Part shown: piece after piece, positions 23,343-27,855 of the stretch | Layout of the letters: the number at the start of each line of letters is the position of its first letter | How positions within the stretch are numbered: position 1 is the first letter of the stretch | Source: Pseudomonas entomophila | GTDB lineage: Bacteria; Pseudomonadota; Gammaproteobacteria; Pseudomonadales; Pseudomonadaceae | Direction of reading: 5' to 3' | Length of the DNA stretch: 64,000 nt | Assembly: GCF_023277925.1 (NCBI RefSeq) | Contig: NZ_CP063832.1 | Location: forward strand, 620,001 to 684,000 | Position numbers and translations under genes: made by a program | The notes under the pieces: model-generated | The model's database searches: none | Seen by the model: the letters and a program-made list of their open reading frames with translations, nothing else | Told to the model about the DNA's origin: nothing

Positions 23343-25202
23343 ATGCTGCAGAATATCAGGGACAATTCACAAGGTTGGATTGCCAAGACCATCATTGGCC
23401 TCATCGTCGTGCTCATGGCGTTGACCGGCTTCGAAGCCATCTTCCAAGCCGCCACCCATAGCCAGGACGCCGCCAAGGTAAACGGCCAGACCATCAGCCA
23501 GAACGAACTGAGCCAGGCCGTCGACATGCAGCGCCGCCAGCTGATGCAACAGCTGGGCAAGGATTTCGACCCTGCGCTGCTGGACGAGAAGATGCTGCGC
23601 GAAGCCGCGCTCAAGGGGCTGATCGATCGCAAGCTGCTGCTGCAGGGGGCCGAAGACGCCAAGTTCGCTTTCTCCGAGGCCGCGCTGGATCAACTGATCC
23701 TGCAGACGCCTGAATTCCAGGTCGATGGCAAGTTCAGCGCCGATCGTTTCGATTCGGTCATCCGCCAGATGGGCTACGGGCGCATGCAGTTCCGCGAGAT
23801 GCTGGCCCAGGAAATGCTCATCGGCCAACTGCGCACCGGCCTTGCCGGCAGCAGTTTCGTCACCGACAAGCAGGTCGAGGCCTTCGCTCGCCTGGAGAAG
23901 CAGACCCGTGACTTCGCCGCGCTGACCTTCAAGGCCGACCCGGCCGCAGTCAAGGTGAGCGACGAGGAGGTCAAGGCGCACTATGACCAGCACGCCAAGG
24001 AGTTTATGACCCCCGACCAGGTGGTCATCGACTACATCGAGCTGAAGAAGTCGGCCTTCTTCGCCCAGGTCAAGGTCAGCGACGATGAGCTCAAGGCGCT
24101 GTACGAGAAGGAGATCGCCAACCTTGGCGAGCAGCGCCATGCCGCGCACATCCTGATCGAGGTCAACGACAAGACCACCGATGCCCAGGCCAAGGCCCGC
24201 ATCGAGGAAATCCAGCAACGTCTGGAAAAGGGTGAGGACTTCGCCAAGCTGGCCAAGGAGTTCTCCCAGGACCCAGGTTCCGCCAATGCAGGCGGCGACC
24301 TCGGCTTTGCTGGCCCAGGTGTGTACGACCCGACCTTCGAGGACGCGCTGTACAAGCTGAACAAGGATCAGGTGTCCGCCCCGGTGCGCACCCAGTTCGG
24401 CTACCACCTGGTCAAGCTGCTGGGCGTCCAGGCACCTGACGTGCCGAGCTTCGCCAGCCTGAAGGATAAGCTGACCCACGAGCTGAAGACCCAGCAAGTG
24501 GAGCAGCGCTTCGTCGAGGCGACCAAGCAACTCGAGGATGCTGCGTTCGAGGCATCCGACCTGGTTCAGCCTGCGCAGGACCTGGGCCTGAAAGTGCAGA
24601 CCTCCGCGGCGTTCGGCCGTGAAGGTGGCGAAGGTATCACGGCCAACCGTGCGGTGATCCAGGCTGCCTTCAGCGAGCAGGTGCTGGAGGATAGCGCCAA
24701 CAGCAACGGCATCGAGCTGGACCCGGAGACCGTGGTGGTATTGCGGGTCAAGGAGCACCGCAAGCCTGAACAGTTGCCCCTGGAGGCCGTGGCCAAGAAC
24801 ATCAGCCAGCACTTGGCCAAGGAGAAGGCGACCGCCGAACTCAAGGCCAAGGCCGACAAGCTGATCGCCGGCCTGCGTGATGGCTCGGTCAAGGCCGCGA
24901 GCCAGAGCTGGAAGGTCCAGGAAGCGGTGACCCGCGGTCAGGACGGTATCGATCCGGCCGAGCTGCAGGCGGTGTTCCGCATGGCCAAGCCCGAGTCCAA
25001 GGACAAGCCCGTGTATGGCAGTGTAGTGCTGGGCGATGGCAGCCTGGTGGTCCTGCAGCTCAAGGGTGTCAACGAAGGCGCTGCCGCCACCGACGAGGAG
25101 AAGGGGCAGATTCGCCGCTACCTCGCTTCGCGTGCCGGTTCGCAGGACTTCGCGGCCTACCGCAAGTTGCTGGAAGGCAGTGCCGATATCACGCGCTACT
25201 GA
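23343..25202 (+). CDS. ppiD: Periplasmic folding chaperone PpiD
   Basis: 619 residues, anchored to the inner membrane by one N-terminal helix (residues ~15-36, TIIGLIVVLMALTGFEAIF), with the rest in the periplasm near the Sec exit. A SurA_N-like chaperone region is followed by one parvulin domain (about 262-360, RHAAHILIEV to FGYHLVKLLGV). The start at MLQNIRDN has a strong GGGGGA; an upstream frame is rejected because it overlaps the hupB terminator. PpiD usually has little isomerase activity and works as a chaperone for outer-membrane proteins. Confidence 0.96.
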   Translation: MLQNIRDNSQGWIAKTIIGLIVVLMALTGFEAIFQAATHSQDAAKVNGQTISQNELSQAVDMQRRQLMQQLGKDFDPALLDEKMLREAALKGLIDRKLLLQGAEDAKFAFSEAALDQLILQTPEFQVDGKFSADRFDSVIRQMGYGRMQFREMLAQEMLIGQLRTGLAGSSFVTDKQVEAFARLEKQTRDFAALTFKADPAAVKVSDEEVKAHYDQHAKEFMTPDQVVIDYIELKKSAFFAQVKVSDDELKALYEKEIANLGEQRHAAHILIEVNDKTTDAQAKARIEEIQQRLEKGEDFAKLAKEFSQDPGSANAGGDLGFAGPGVYDPTFEDALYKLNKDQVSAPVRTQFGYHLVKLLGVQAPDVPSFASLKDKLTHELKTQQVEQRFVEATKQLEDAAFEASDLVQPAQDLGLKVQTSAAFGREGGEGITANRAVIQAAFSEQVLEDSANSNGIELDPETVVVLRVKEHRKPEQLPLEAVAKNISQHLAKEKATAELKAKADKLIAGLRDGSVKAASQSWKVQEAVTRGQDGIDPAELQAVFRMAKPESKDKPVYGSVVLGDGSLVVLQLKGVNEGAAATDEEKGQIRRYLASRAGSQDFAAYRKLLEGSADITRY

Positions 25203-25217
25203 GTGGTGCACCGATCA

Positions 25218-25249
25218 CGAAACAGGCCGCTTATGCGGCCTGTTTCGTT
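25218..25249 (+). terminator. ppiD terminator
   Basis: GAAACAGGCCGC-TTAT-GCGGCCTGTTTC with following T-rich sequence. It ends just before the insertion sequence. Confidence 0.85.
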
Positions 25250-25348
25250 TCCGGGGGTTCTGCCTGTAATCGGATGGACTCGCCCCCGCCGAGGCATCAC
25301 AGTGCCACGGTGGCGTTCTAAAAAGCCAACGGCAGCGAGGGCGAGACC

Positions 25349-26452
25349 ATGAGCAAGCATAGGACGAAGCGCAATTCCCTGTCTTCCAACGATGTAACGC
25401 TTTGCCAACATCTGTCAGTCGACCTGGCCAAGCAAGTCTTTCAGGTGGCCGGAGATGACGGTTCCGGGCGCGTCATCTACGAAGATCGAATCAAATCCCG
25501 TGAAGCCTTTCATGCGTTCCTGACCAGGCTGCCACCCACTGTGACGGTCCTGATGGAAAGTGGCCCCGGCGCTCAAGCATGGGGGCGTTTGCTACAGGCG
25601 CAGGGAACGCCAGTCCGCATCCTGCCCGCGCAGCGAGTGGCGGAGCACCGCAGTGGTGCCAAGAACGATCGTAACGACGCCCATGCCATCTTGCGCGCAG
25701 GCCGGGATACCAGCATTGCTGCGGTGCCGATCAAGAGCACTGCCGCTTTGGCGATTCAAGCCTTACACCGCGCCCGCAGAGGCTATGTCAGGCGCCACAC
25801 CGCGCTAGGCAACCAGATCCGCGGCCTGTTACTGGAACAGGGCGTCGCCCTGGCGCAAGGCGATTTAGCCGTCAGCCACGGTGTACCGCGCATTCTTGAA
25901 GATACGACTCAACCATTGCCAGATCTGCTGCGTGAATTGCTCGATGAACTGCTCGCCGAATGGCGCTATCTGAGTGAGCGTATCGCCATCCTGACAGGAC
26001 GGCTCGAAACAGCGGCGCAGGCCGACAAGGTCGCATGCCGCCTGATGACGATACGCGGTGTCGGCCCGATCATCGCCACAGCGATGCTGGCCAAGCAGCC
26101 TGAACCTTCGCGTTTCCCCAATGCTCGACAGTTTGCCGCTTACTTTGGCCTGGTGCCCGACCAGCACAGCAGTGGAAAGAAGGTCAGGCTAGGCAAGATG
26201 AGCAAGCGAGGTGACGGCTACCTGCGCAGCATGATGATCCAGGGTGCGCACGCGGTTCTTAGCCATTTGAAGCCTGATTCCGATCAGCCAGACGATCGCC
26301 GCCTCTTGCGATGGTTAACTCGACTTGGTCGCAAGGAGGCGGCGATCAGACTGGCTAATCGAAATCTGCGCATCATCTGGGTGCTGCTACAAGGTGAGCA
26401 GGTCTACCAACGCCAACCGAACGATCGTCAGGAGCCCGCCATGAGCCACTGA
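25349..26452 (+). CDS. IS110/IS1111-family transposase (DEDD recombinase)
   Basis: 367 residues, apparently intact. The N-terminal RuvC-like domain contains SVDLAKQVFQVAG (Asp25), VLMESGPGAQAWGR (Glu) and AKNDRNDAHAIL (two Asp), the DEDD set of this family. The C-terminal part has the Transposase_20 pattern TIRGVGPIIATAMLA and YFGLVPDQHSSGKK, with the conserved catalytic-serine region (RLGKMSKRGDGYLRSMMIQGA). These enzymes act through a circular intermediate and are guided by a small RNA from the element's own non-coding end. Codon use is slightly less G+C-rich than the host genes. Confidence 0.95.
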   Translation: MSKHRTKRNSLSSNDVTLCQHLSVDLAKQVFQVAGDDGSGRVIYEDRIKSREAFHAFLTRLPPTVTVLMESGPGAQAWGRLLQAQGTPVRILPAQRVAEHRSGAKNDRNDAHAILRAGRDTSIAAVPIKSTAALAIQALHRARRGYVRRHTALGNQIRGLLLEQGVALAQGDLAVSHGVPRILEDTTQPLPDLLRELLDELLAEWRYLSERIAILTGRLETAAQADKVACRLMTIRGVGPIIATAMLAKQPEPSRFPNARQFAAYFGLVPDQHSSGKKVRLGKMSKRGDGYLRSMMIQGAHAVLSHLKPDSDQPDDRRLLRWLTRLGRKEAAIRLANRNLRIIWVLLQGEQVYQRQPNDRQEPAMSH

Positions 26453-26688
26453 CTTACAGTGTTACGCCACCGGGGTGCCGAGCGCCCCAGCCCCTGCTAG
26501 TGAACATCGACCCTAGGTAAGACCGTCGCGGATTAATGCCTACGCTCCTACCGGCCCAAGAGGCCTAAATGTAATGGGCATGCTGCGAGCTCACCCCGAT
26601 GTTGGCCAGAAGCACCAAGCTTCCTCGAATAGGCCTGATACATAGATGCAACCGGGTAACCTTGTTCGAAAAGCAGGTAGACAATGTA
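26453..26688 (+). ncRNA. Putative guide (bridge/seek) RNA region of the insertion sequence
   Basis: A 236-base non-coding stretch between transposase stop and right inverted repeat. It contains hairpin GGGGTG-CCGAG-CGCCCC (near 26470) and the long-range pairing AGGCCTA/TAGGCCT. The 9-base CGCTCCTAC (26543-26551) is complementary to GTAGGAGCG, the REP sequence across the rejoined insertion point. IS1111 elements are known to encode their targeting RNA downstream of the transposase, so this is the expected place. RNA ends and promoter are not determined. Confidence 0.55.
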
Positions 26689-26701
26689 GGCGAGTCCATA
26701 C

Positions 26702-26787
26702 ATAGGAGCGGCTTTAGCCGCGATGCGGTTGACGCGGTACCTGGCATCGGCTGCGCCGGTGTTCGCGGCTGAAGCCGCTCCTACAGG
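26702..26787. repeat. REP pair interrupted at its left edge by the insertion sequence
   Basis: TAGGAGCGGCTTTAGCCGC and the inverted GCGGCTGAAGCCGCTCCTAC face each other across about 45 bases. The first REP lacks its leading CCTG, which is found on the other side of the insertion sequence. Confidence 0.85.
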
Positions 26788-26814
26788 TATCTGAGCATCG
26801 GGCAGGGCCCCGGG

Positions 26815-27855
26815 CTAGCGGCGCTGCCCTTCATGGGCGTCCAGCGTGTCCCGCGCAATTTCCCGTCCCAGGGCAATCAACTCCGGCGCCTTGTAGAACT
26901 CGAAGAACCGGCAGACCCGCTTGGGCACATTGATCAGCACATCGGGTGGATAGCCCGCGATCTTGTACTGCGCCAACGACGTCTGCATCACCTCGAAACT
27001 CTGGTTGATCAGGTCGAGCAGGGAGGCCGGGCCGACGTTGTCGATGATGAAAGAACCCGTGGCCGATTTCGGGGCGCCTTCGCTTTCCGGCGCCGCTGCT
27101 GGTTGCTGGCCTTCGGGTTCGGCACTCTCACCCAGCCAAGGATTGGGGGGGGCCAGGCTCTCCACGGTGATCTCCTGCTCGATGCGTATCAATTGCTCGG
27201 CCGGCTTGCGGCGAAAAGGCAGGCGTGAGCCGAGCGAACTGATCAGTGAGTCAAAACGCATCTTGAACGCCGCCGGGCGCTCGATCACAGGTAGCTGGTA
27301 TTGTTTCTGGTTGGTGGCGTTGAGGTTGACCGCGATGATCAGGTCACAGTGGCTGGACACCACCGGCACGATCGGCAGCGGGTTGAGAATGCCGCCGTCG
27401 ACCAGCATCCGATTGCCCTGCACCACAGGGGTGAACAGGCTGGGGATCGCCGCCGAGGCGCGCATGGCCTGATGCAGGCAACCTTCCTGGAACCAGATTT
27501 CCTGTTGATTGGTCAGGTCAGTGGCCACCGCAGTGTAGGGAATGCGCAATTGTTCGATGTTGATCTCACCGACGATCTTGCGAATCTGCCCGAACACCTT
27601 GTCGCCCCTTATGGCTCCCAGGCGAAAGCTCACATCGACCAGGCGCAGCACGTCGAGGTAGTCCAGGCTTTCGATCCAGTTACGGTACTCGTCCAGCTTC
27701 CCGGCGGCATAGATGCCGCCGATCACGGCGCCCATCGAGCAGCCGGCGATACAGCCGATCTCGTAACCACGTCGCTCGATTTCCTCGATCACGCCGATGT
27801 GCGCGTACCCCCGGGCGCCGCCCGAACCGAGTACCAGTGCCACGCGTTTGCTCAT
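26815..27855 (-). CDS. Patatin-like phospholipase family protein (RssA/YlbK-like)
   Basis: 346 residues, cytoplasmic. The patatin fold is shown by the oxyanion loop GSGGARGYAHIG, the nucleophile elbow GCSMG with Ser40 and the catalytic Asp153 in VDGGILNP. The ~110 residues after the core include a Pro/Glu/Ala-rich linker (EPEGQQPAAAPESEGAPKS) and a helical C-terminus. Such proteins are serine lipid hydrolases; the true substrate is unknown. GGGGGGA lies before the ATG. No operon partner is visible: the next gene upstream is divergent. Confidence 0.9.
   Translation of the reverse strand: MSKRVALVLGSGGARGYAHIGVIEEIERRGYEIGCIAGCSMGAVIGGIYAAGKLDEYRNWIESLDYLDVLRLVDVSFRLGAIRGDKVFGQIRKIVGEINIEQLRIPYTAVATDLTNQQEIWFQEGCLHQAMRASAAIPSLFTPVVQGNRMLVDGGILNPLPIVPVVSSHCDLIIAVNLNATNQKQYQLPVIERPAAFKMRFDSLISSLGSRLPFRRKPAEQLIRIEQEITVESLAPPNPWLGESAEPEGQQPAAAPESEGAPKSATGSFIIDNVGPASLLDLINQSFEVMQTSLAQYKIAGYPPDVLINVPKRVCRFFEFYKAPELIALGREIARDTLDAHEGQRR

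Follow-up and report, generated by a model that had tools for sequence, protein, structure and literature searches.

The window (the whole 64,000-nt stretch of Pseudomonas entomophila DNA analyzed here) contains an insertion sequence of the IS1111 group that lies at the start of a REP. Its parts, the predicted features of its non-coding end and the surrounding repeats are listed below.

25267..26702, forward strand: IS1111-group insertion sequence, 1436 bp, delimited by 11 full genome copies, their shared flanks, the 7/3-bp end rule and uninterrupted sites in another genome (G264)
25267-25273, forward strand: left 7-bp extension TAATCGG, from sequence
25274..25284, forward strand: left subterminal inverted repeat ATGGACTCGCC, a perfect inverted match to 26689-26699
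25349..26452, forward strand: transposase, 367 aa, with PF01548 (DEDD_Tnp_IS110) and PF02371 (Transposase_20); NCBIfam NF033542
26503..26603, forward strand: predicted guide-RNA core (short form), closed by AACAUCG/CGAUGUU, with inner stems UCGCGG/CUGCGA and AUGCC/GGCAU and an apical GGCC hairpin
26543..26551, forward strand: predicted top-strand target guide CGCUCCUAC, complement of G|TAGGAGCG, covarying with occupied sites in 26 of 27 genomes
26570..26573, forward strand: predicted bottom-strand target guide UGUA, matching TG|TA, on the opposite loop arm; its first base covaries partially with the left flank
26596..26600, forward strand: probable donor segment CCGAU, complementary to the left-end ATCGG at 25269-25273
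26638..26644, forward strand: possible donor segment AUACAUA, identical in letters to the right end together with the core (ATACA|TA) and left unpaired by the consensus fold
26678..26683, forward strand: -35-like TAGACA, 17 bp before CATAAT, which forms only when right and left ends are joined in a circle
26689..26699, reverse strand: right subterminal inverted repeat GGCGAGTCCAT, from sequence
26700-26702: right 3-bp extension ACA, from sequence
26703-26723, forward strand: split REP, whose first two target bases TG are at 25265-25266
26763-26783: inverted partner REP, 39 nt on, forming a REPIN-like pair with the split REP

The initial annotation had called this an IS1111-type element, and its repeats, transposase, non-coding region and site use all place it in the IS1111 group. 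The repeats ATGGACTCGCC and GGCGAGTCCAT are perfect and 11 bp long, within the 11–13 bp of this group, and are flanked by the 7-bp (or 6-bp) left and 3-bp right extensions that go with them; the left extension is 6 bp in the elements of G667 and G669. IS1111 ends are described as extending 7 bp beyond the subterminal repeat on the left and 3 bp beyond it on the right (PMC11187229), and by this rule the element spans 25267-26702, between TG and TAGG, rather than 25268..26701 as first annotated. The rejoined flank originally given, CCTGTAGGAGCGGC, is right for the 1436-bp element, but the bounds given with it yield CCTGTATAGGAGCGGC, two bases too many. Both Pfam domains score above cut-off in the transposase, which reaches 285 bits with NF033542 ("IS110 family RNA-guided transposase"; cut-off 140), and GLVPDQHSSG at residue 267 fits the IS1111 motif G--P----S(T)G. 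Downstream of the gene, the 236 bp from stop codon to right repeat, correctly measured in the initial annotation, form the long 3′ non-coding region typical of the IS1111 group. No IS name was found among the best 120 of 1315 relatives in a protein search. None of the best 5000 matches in plasmid records reached 60% identity (about 41% was the maximum among the 40 listed), so that no close named element was found there, and no record named ISPa11 was among the matches listed in either search.

The genome that carries the window has 11 full copies of the element. Compared with the window copy over 1436 bp, three copies (the window's included) have no differences, six have 3 and two have 5. All 11 were inserted at TG|TAGGAGCGG, a REP start, with TG directly before the element and TAGGAGCGG directly after it, which bears out the earlier reading that the element had split a REP. 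Uninterrupted TGTAGGAGCGG sites number 373 in this genome versus 32 for the reversed pattern. That bases are neither gained nor lost upon insertion can be seen in G264, where uninterrupted repeats (8 of 9 reading CTGTAAGAGCG) can be set against the occupied CTG|TAAGAGCG; these repeats and the 11 copies described above indicate site-specific insertion without target duplication, as in other IS1111 elements. A copy other than the window's is located in this genome at G000:C1:684997-686430 (L008), about 1 kb past the right edge of the window, with a GCTCCTACAGG REP end directly before it.

Within the non-coding region, CGCTCCTAC at 26543-26551 (forward strand) complements, without a mismatch, the sequence GTAGGAGCG that runs across the rejoined site. 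This match had been pointed out before as a possible target guide behind REP specificity, with the caveat that nine bases may match by chance. We searched the DNA of 398 genomes of the genus, which gave matches in 49 (many of them short), and subjected 13 to a closer search. A covariance model built on the non-coding region detected 15 of 398 genomes in a family draw and 20 of 398 in a genus draw, with seven hits scored per genome, copy numbers there being lower bounds. Guide and right flank were read for 122 copies in 27 genomes. The guide counts leave out G612 (a weak match), many partial matches that have an end and no guide, and four further related loci, partial or distant; no guide was read in G077, G134, G137 and G265, where the contig end or the stretch read does not include it, and a left-end fragment in G204 was used for its left end only.

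When these copies were compared with their flanks across Pseudomonas, a check that the initial annotation had proposed, 114 of the 122 were found to carry an 8-nt guide exactly complementary to the right half of the site they occupy. By majority, guide fits site in 26 of the 27 genomes, across nine guide sequences. The guides are complementary to TAGGAGCG in seven genomes, TAGGAGCC in five, TAGGAGCT in four, TAGCAGCT in three (including G046, whose site does not fit), TAGGACCG, TAGGGTGG and TAGGATGG in two each, and TAAGAGCG and TAGGAGGG in one each. When guides were permuted among genomes, none of 100,000 permutations reached 26, the best giving 14 of 27. In addition, among the 19 genomes with full elements, 18 have a single occurrence of the complement to their own 8-nt site within the element's last 256 bp, always at the homologous place; the exception is G046, in which it is absent from these 256 bp. 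Copies at sites unrelated to the complement had been named as evidence against a guide, and all 11 copies of the window's genome are at the complement. Covariation across 27 genomes excludes chance as the source of the nine-base match, and the parallel change of guide and site supports its role as the target guide.

A 25-genome tree from sequence outside the guide arms implies at least nine guide changes and nine site changes; one genome, G554, is on a very long branch. Position-wise independent guide–site pairs on supported branches number only one to three (all but one pointing the same way, the other being G046), and the tree test alone is therefore without power. The transposases of G129 and G275 are identical at 350 of 367 residues, their guides differ by one base, and their sites differ correspondingly.

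We also counted five candidate 9-mers in 13 genomes, including sites outside REPs, with P-values that assume independent insertions and equally open sites; on this basis, clear preference for the fitting repeat class over abundant others was observed in 5 of the 13. In the window's genome, all 11 copies are at the fitting class, which makes up 43.5% of candidate sites (P-value = 1e-4), and the non-fitting GTAGGAGCC occurs 548 times versus 474 for the fitting GTAGGAGCG (11 of these being the guides themselves). Copies at the fitting class amount to 11 of 12 in G264 (P-value = 4e-18), 12 of 13 in G275 (P-value = 1e-6), 6 of 6 in G182 (P-value = 4e-4) and 7 of 7 in G012 (P-value = 0.007). All six copies in G129 are at the fitting GTAGCAGCT, 10% of its candidates (P-value = 1e-6), in a genome with 942 GTAGGAGCT sites, the kind used by G275. 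Choice was not significant in 7 of the 13 genomes (G104, G204, G139, G255, G230, G098 and G046), including G255 with 4 of 5 copies at the fitting class (P-value = 0.27).

Considering these observations, we are highly confident that this is an IS1111-group element whose transposase is guided by an RNA from the 3′ non-coding region (seekRNA or bridge RNA). The specificity that places the element in REPs very probably resides in an RNA and is legible in the sequence. If the transposase protein itself recognized the REP, by sequence or hairpin, the complement would be coincidence or hitchhiking; REPs are indeed palindromic, and REP-specific elements are reported in other families, such as ISPsy8 (IS3) and ISRm22 (IS4) (PMC1525189). 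However, transposases that are 95% identical use different sites according to one guide base, elements only 68–76% identical with a common guide use the same site, and the element of G264 enters a different repeat at TAAGAGCG, in keeping with its guide, all of which make direct reading by the protein very improbable.

Slightly less probable still is that an element lineage living in a host with one REP type simply drifted together with it, with no pairing between RNA and site. Several guide classes are clades, as shared ancestry would predict, and in G204, G139, G012, G255, G230 and G098 the class that fits the guide also outnumbers each of the other four counted. On the other hand, the fitting class is not the commonest in the window's genome, G104, G182, G129, G275 and G264, and yet is used by 11 of 11, 3 of 3, 6 of 6, 6 of 6, 12 of 13 and 11 of 12 copies, respectively; in a seventh such genome, G046, it is used by 0 of 1.

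Guidance by the RNA also has to accommodate the 8 of 122 copies that lack an exact guide–site match. Single mismatches occur in G139, G264, G275, G046 and G469. G046 has one, internally deleted element and is the sole genome of the 27 that disagrees; G469 uses a second, poor site, and 2 of its 4 copies match, which was counted as a majority. In G667, one copy (L160) is followed by TTAGGAGCGG, shifted by one base from the six others read there, because of either sloppy strand exchange or a later change. The non-match in G255 is a tandem remnant: at G255:C1:1790227-1793375 (L027, L090), two near-tandem copies are present, and a 73-bp right-end remnant of a third follows the second, so that the right flank of the second copy is TAGGCCTG and not a REP. 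The left guide is weak and its test gave a mixed result, a guide C facing a flank T in 9 of 18 cases, including 6 of 6 in G129.

The assembly of G137 (L044, L207, L225-L229) has seven right ends, four at TAGGAGTG and three at TAGGAGCG, and breaks before the guide; a pattern search of this assembly found no guide. A guide CACTCCTAC, predicted from two copies, was dropped in view of the seven right ends at two site types. G137 must have either one guide that tolerates a mismatch or G-T wobble, or two guides; a guide CGCUCC could reach both site types via G-T wobble.

In G264, all 12 copies are in a repeat CTGTAAGAGCGAAACC...GCCGTTACC, one member of which varies at the site. This repeat differs from the REP beyond the insertion site, and the guide, CGCUCUUAC, fits the repeat. 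Uninterrupted members account for 9 of the 15 other GTAAGAGCG sites read, from 23 outside elements (35 less 12). The interspersed repeat (CTGTAAGAGCGAAACCATAAGTGGCCGTTACC) is heavily occupied, with 12 insertions versus at least 9 uninterrupted members (e.g., L135-L140, L143, L144 and L146).

An alignment of 13 sequences suggested a common fold for the guide region, with an outer stem AACAUUG/CAAUGUU, two inner stems and the apical GGCC hairpin, in which the two guides face each other in an internal loop. In this short form, 99.1% of pair cells are kept and five pairs are changed on both sides, a number reached by 2 of 500 shuffles; RNAalifold, with no structure supplied, recovered the same guide loop. 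In a long form, derived from the same alignment, the 5′ strand AACAUUG pairs with a strand near the right end and both CCRAU and AUACAUA are unpaired; this form is supported as well (96.6% of cells kept, with eight pairs changed on both sides, as in 1 of 500 shuffles). The short and long forms exclude each other and may represent a switch. The window RNA (26505-26660) folded alone is no better than its shuffles (z = 0.20), and the AUGCC/GGCAU stem is missing from its single-sequence minimum. Against Rfam, positions 25000-27000 yielded a single match at E-values up to 1, below threshold and outside the RNA. In IS1111 seekRNAs, the top-strand match is described as preceding the bottom-strand match (PMC11187229), and the same order is found here, CGCUCCUAC being 5′ of UGUA in one conserved loop.

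The RNA contains another segment that covaries with the element's own left end, which suggests donor binding. In 20 genomes, CCRAU is complementary to the left-end ATYGG in 89 of 100 cells, a value reached by none of 100,000 permutations and weakened by relatedness, since the C state at left-end base 5 may have arisen only about twice. This base and its RNA partner agree in all 20 genomes (14 T-A, 6 C-G), base 6 fits in 17 of 20 and base 7 in 12. When the segment is slid by 1–12 bases, no more than 42 of the 100 cells match, compared with 89 in place. The other possible donor segment, AUACAUA, is invariant, and its presence in all 20 elements tested leaves it without a covariation test.

The RNA might instead pair with the target only, the CCRAU–left end pairing being a by-product of the outer stem, and we regard this as possible, if rather less likely than donor binding. 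The segment does also pair with AACAUUG in the short-form stem, and both the few origins of the C/G state on the tree and the imperfect fit of bases 6 and 7 are compatible with such a by-product. Moreover, an ISEc11 seekRNA of 70–100 nt is reported to suffice for transposition, and no donor segment is described with it (PMC11187229). Against this stand the complete agreement at base 5 and the loss of matches upon sliding, as well as the elements of G204, G667, G669 and G611, in which the RNA base fits the left end and forms a G-U wobble in the stem. A multiloop with donor-binding nucleotides has also been proposed for many IS1111 elements (Durrant et al., PMC11208160). If donor binding is correct, the apparent donor segment offers a concrete model of how IS1111 RNAs recognize their own ends, a question left open in the seekRNA paper (PMC11187229).

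A junction promoter is a further IS1111 feature for which a sequence match is present (TAGACA-17-CATAAT, across the joined circle ends). A -35 match of at least 5 of 6 letters at 16–18 bp was detected in 14 of 19 genomes versus 1.4% of shuffles, and ISEc11 is reported to form a junction promoter of this kind (PMC11187229). A reasonable model is that the element would excise as a circle, whose joined ends would create this promoter and drive transcription of the transposase gene and then of the downstream guide RNA. The RNA would bind the transposase, and strand exchange would occur at TG|TA without duplication, splitting the REP head from the palindrome, while CCGAU and AUACAUA would probably bind the element's own joined ends. 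The model draws on the ends, the sites, guide–site covariation, some within-genome choice, the conserved predicted fold and the junction promoter match; that the RNA is made, bound to the transposase and required we infer from published work on relatives.

SeekRNAs have been shown for ISEc11, ISPa11, ISKpn4 and ISPst6 (PMC11187229). The guide mechanism is thus already known, and the element belongs to a known kind. ISPa11 of P. aeruginosa is likewise an IS1111-group element that targets REPs and makes no direct repeats (PMC11187229, PMC1525189); its 96-nt seekRNA from downstream of tnp was identified by co-purification (PMC11187229), whereas the RNA here is predicted from sequence. ISPa11 is another element from another species group, compared here by description. 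Natural redirection via changed guide letters, as observed here, is also described for ISEc11/ISXne4 and ISEc21/ISMch6 (PMC11187229). Those are two-member comparisons, whereas the present set comprises nine guides in 27 genomes of one related group, together with within-genome choice.

IS621 of E. coli (IS110 group) resembles the present element in its target and donor loops, guides on both arms, REP target and proof by covariation. It differs in that its RNA is in the left end, its arm order is reversed and long subterminal repeats are absent (PMC11208160); here the predicted RNA lies downstream of tnp and the 11-bp repeats are present. ISPpu9 and ISPpu10 of P. putida share the IS110-type transposase and the REP target, and ISPpu9 encodes an sRNA downstream of tnp, as predicted here (PMC8450116, PMC1525189). 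These two elements are reported to generate a 2-bp direct repeat between REP bases 9 and 10, in contrast to the TG|TA site here, where no duplication is found at the insertion point (G264 repeats). Among the open-licence papers listed in our literature searches, none described, in its title or abstract opening, a series of natural guides that tracks the REP types of Pseudomonas.

Nine natural guide–target pairs from one related group provide material for studying mismatch tolerance, guide–transposase pairing across relatives and the choice of compact recombinases. REPs carry a GTAG head, which is recognized by RAYT proteins. We consider it somewhat more probable than the opposite that this Pseudomonas element group remains harmless and abundant because its guides drift with the host repeats. 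Single-base changes would switch among coexisting REP subclasses, and once to another interspersed repeat (G264), with the transposase little changed. The GT/AG cut would also part the REP from its GTAG head and could stop RAYT transposases from moving that REP.

An imperfect palindrome is also present within the transposase gene (window positions 26276-26366), with perfect 12-nt arms at 26294-26305 and 26336-26347. The 91 bp of this region match their reverse strand at 77%, and a palindrome of this kind is also present in G104 (76%).
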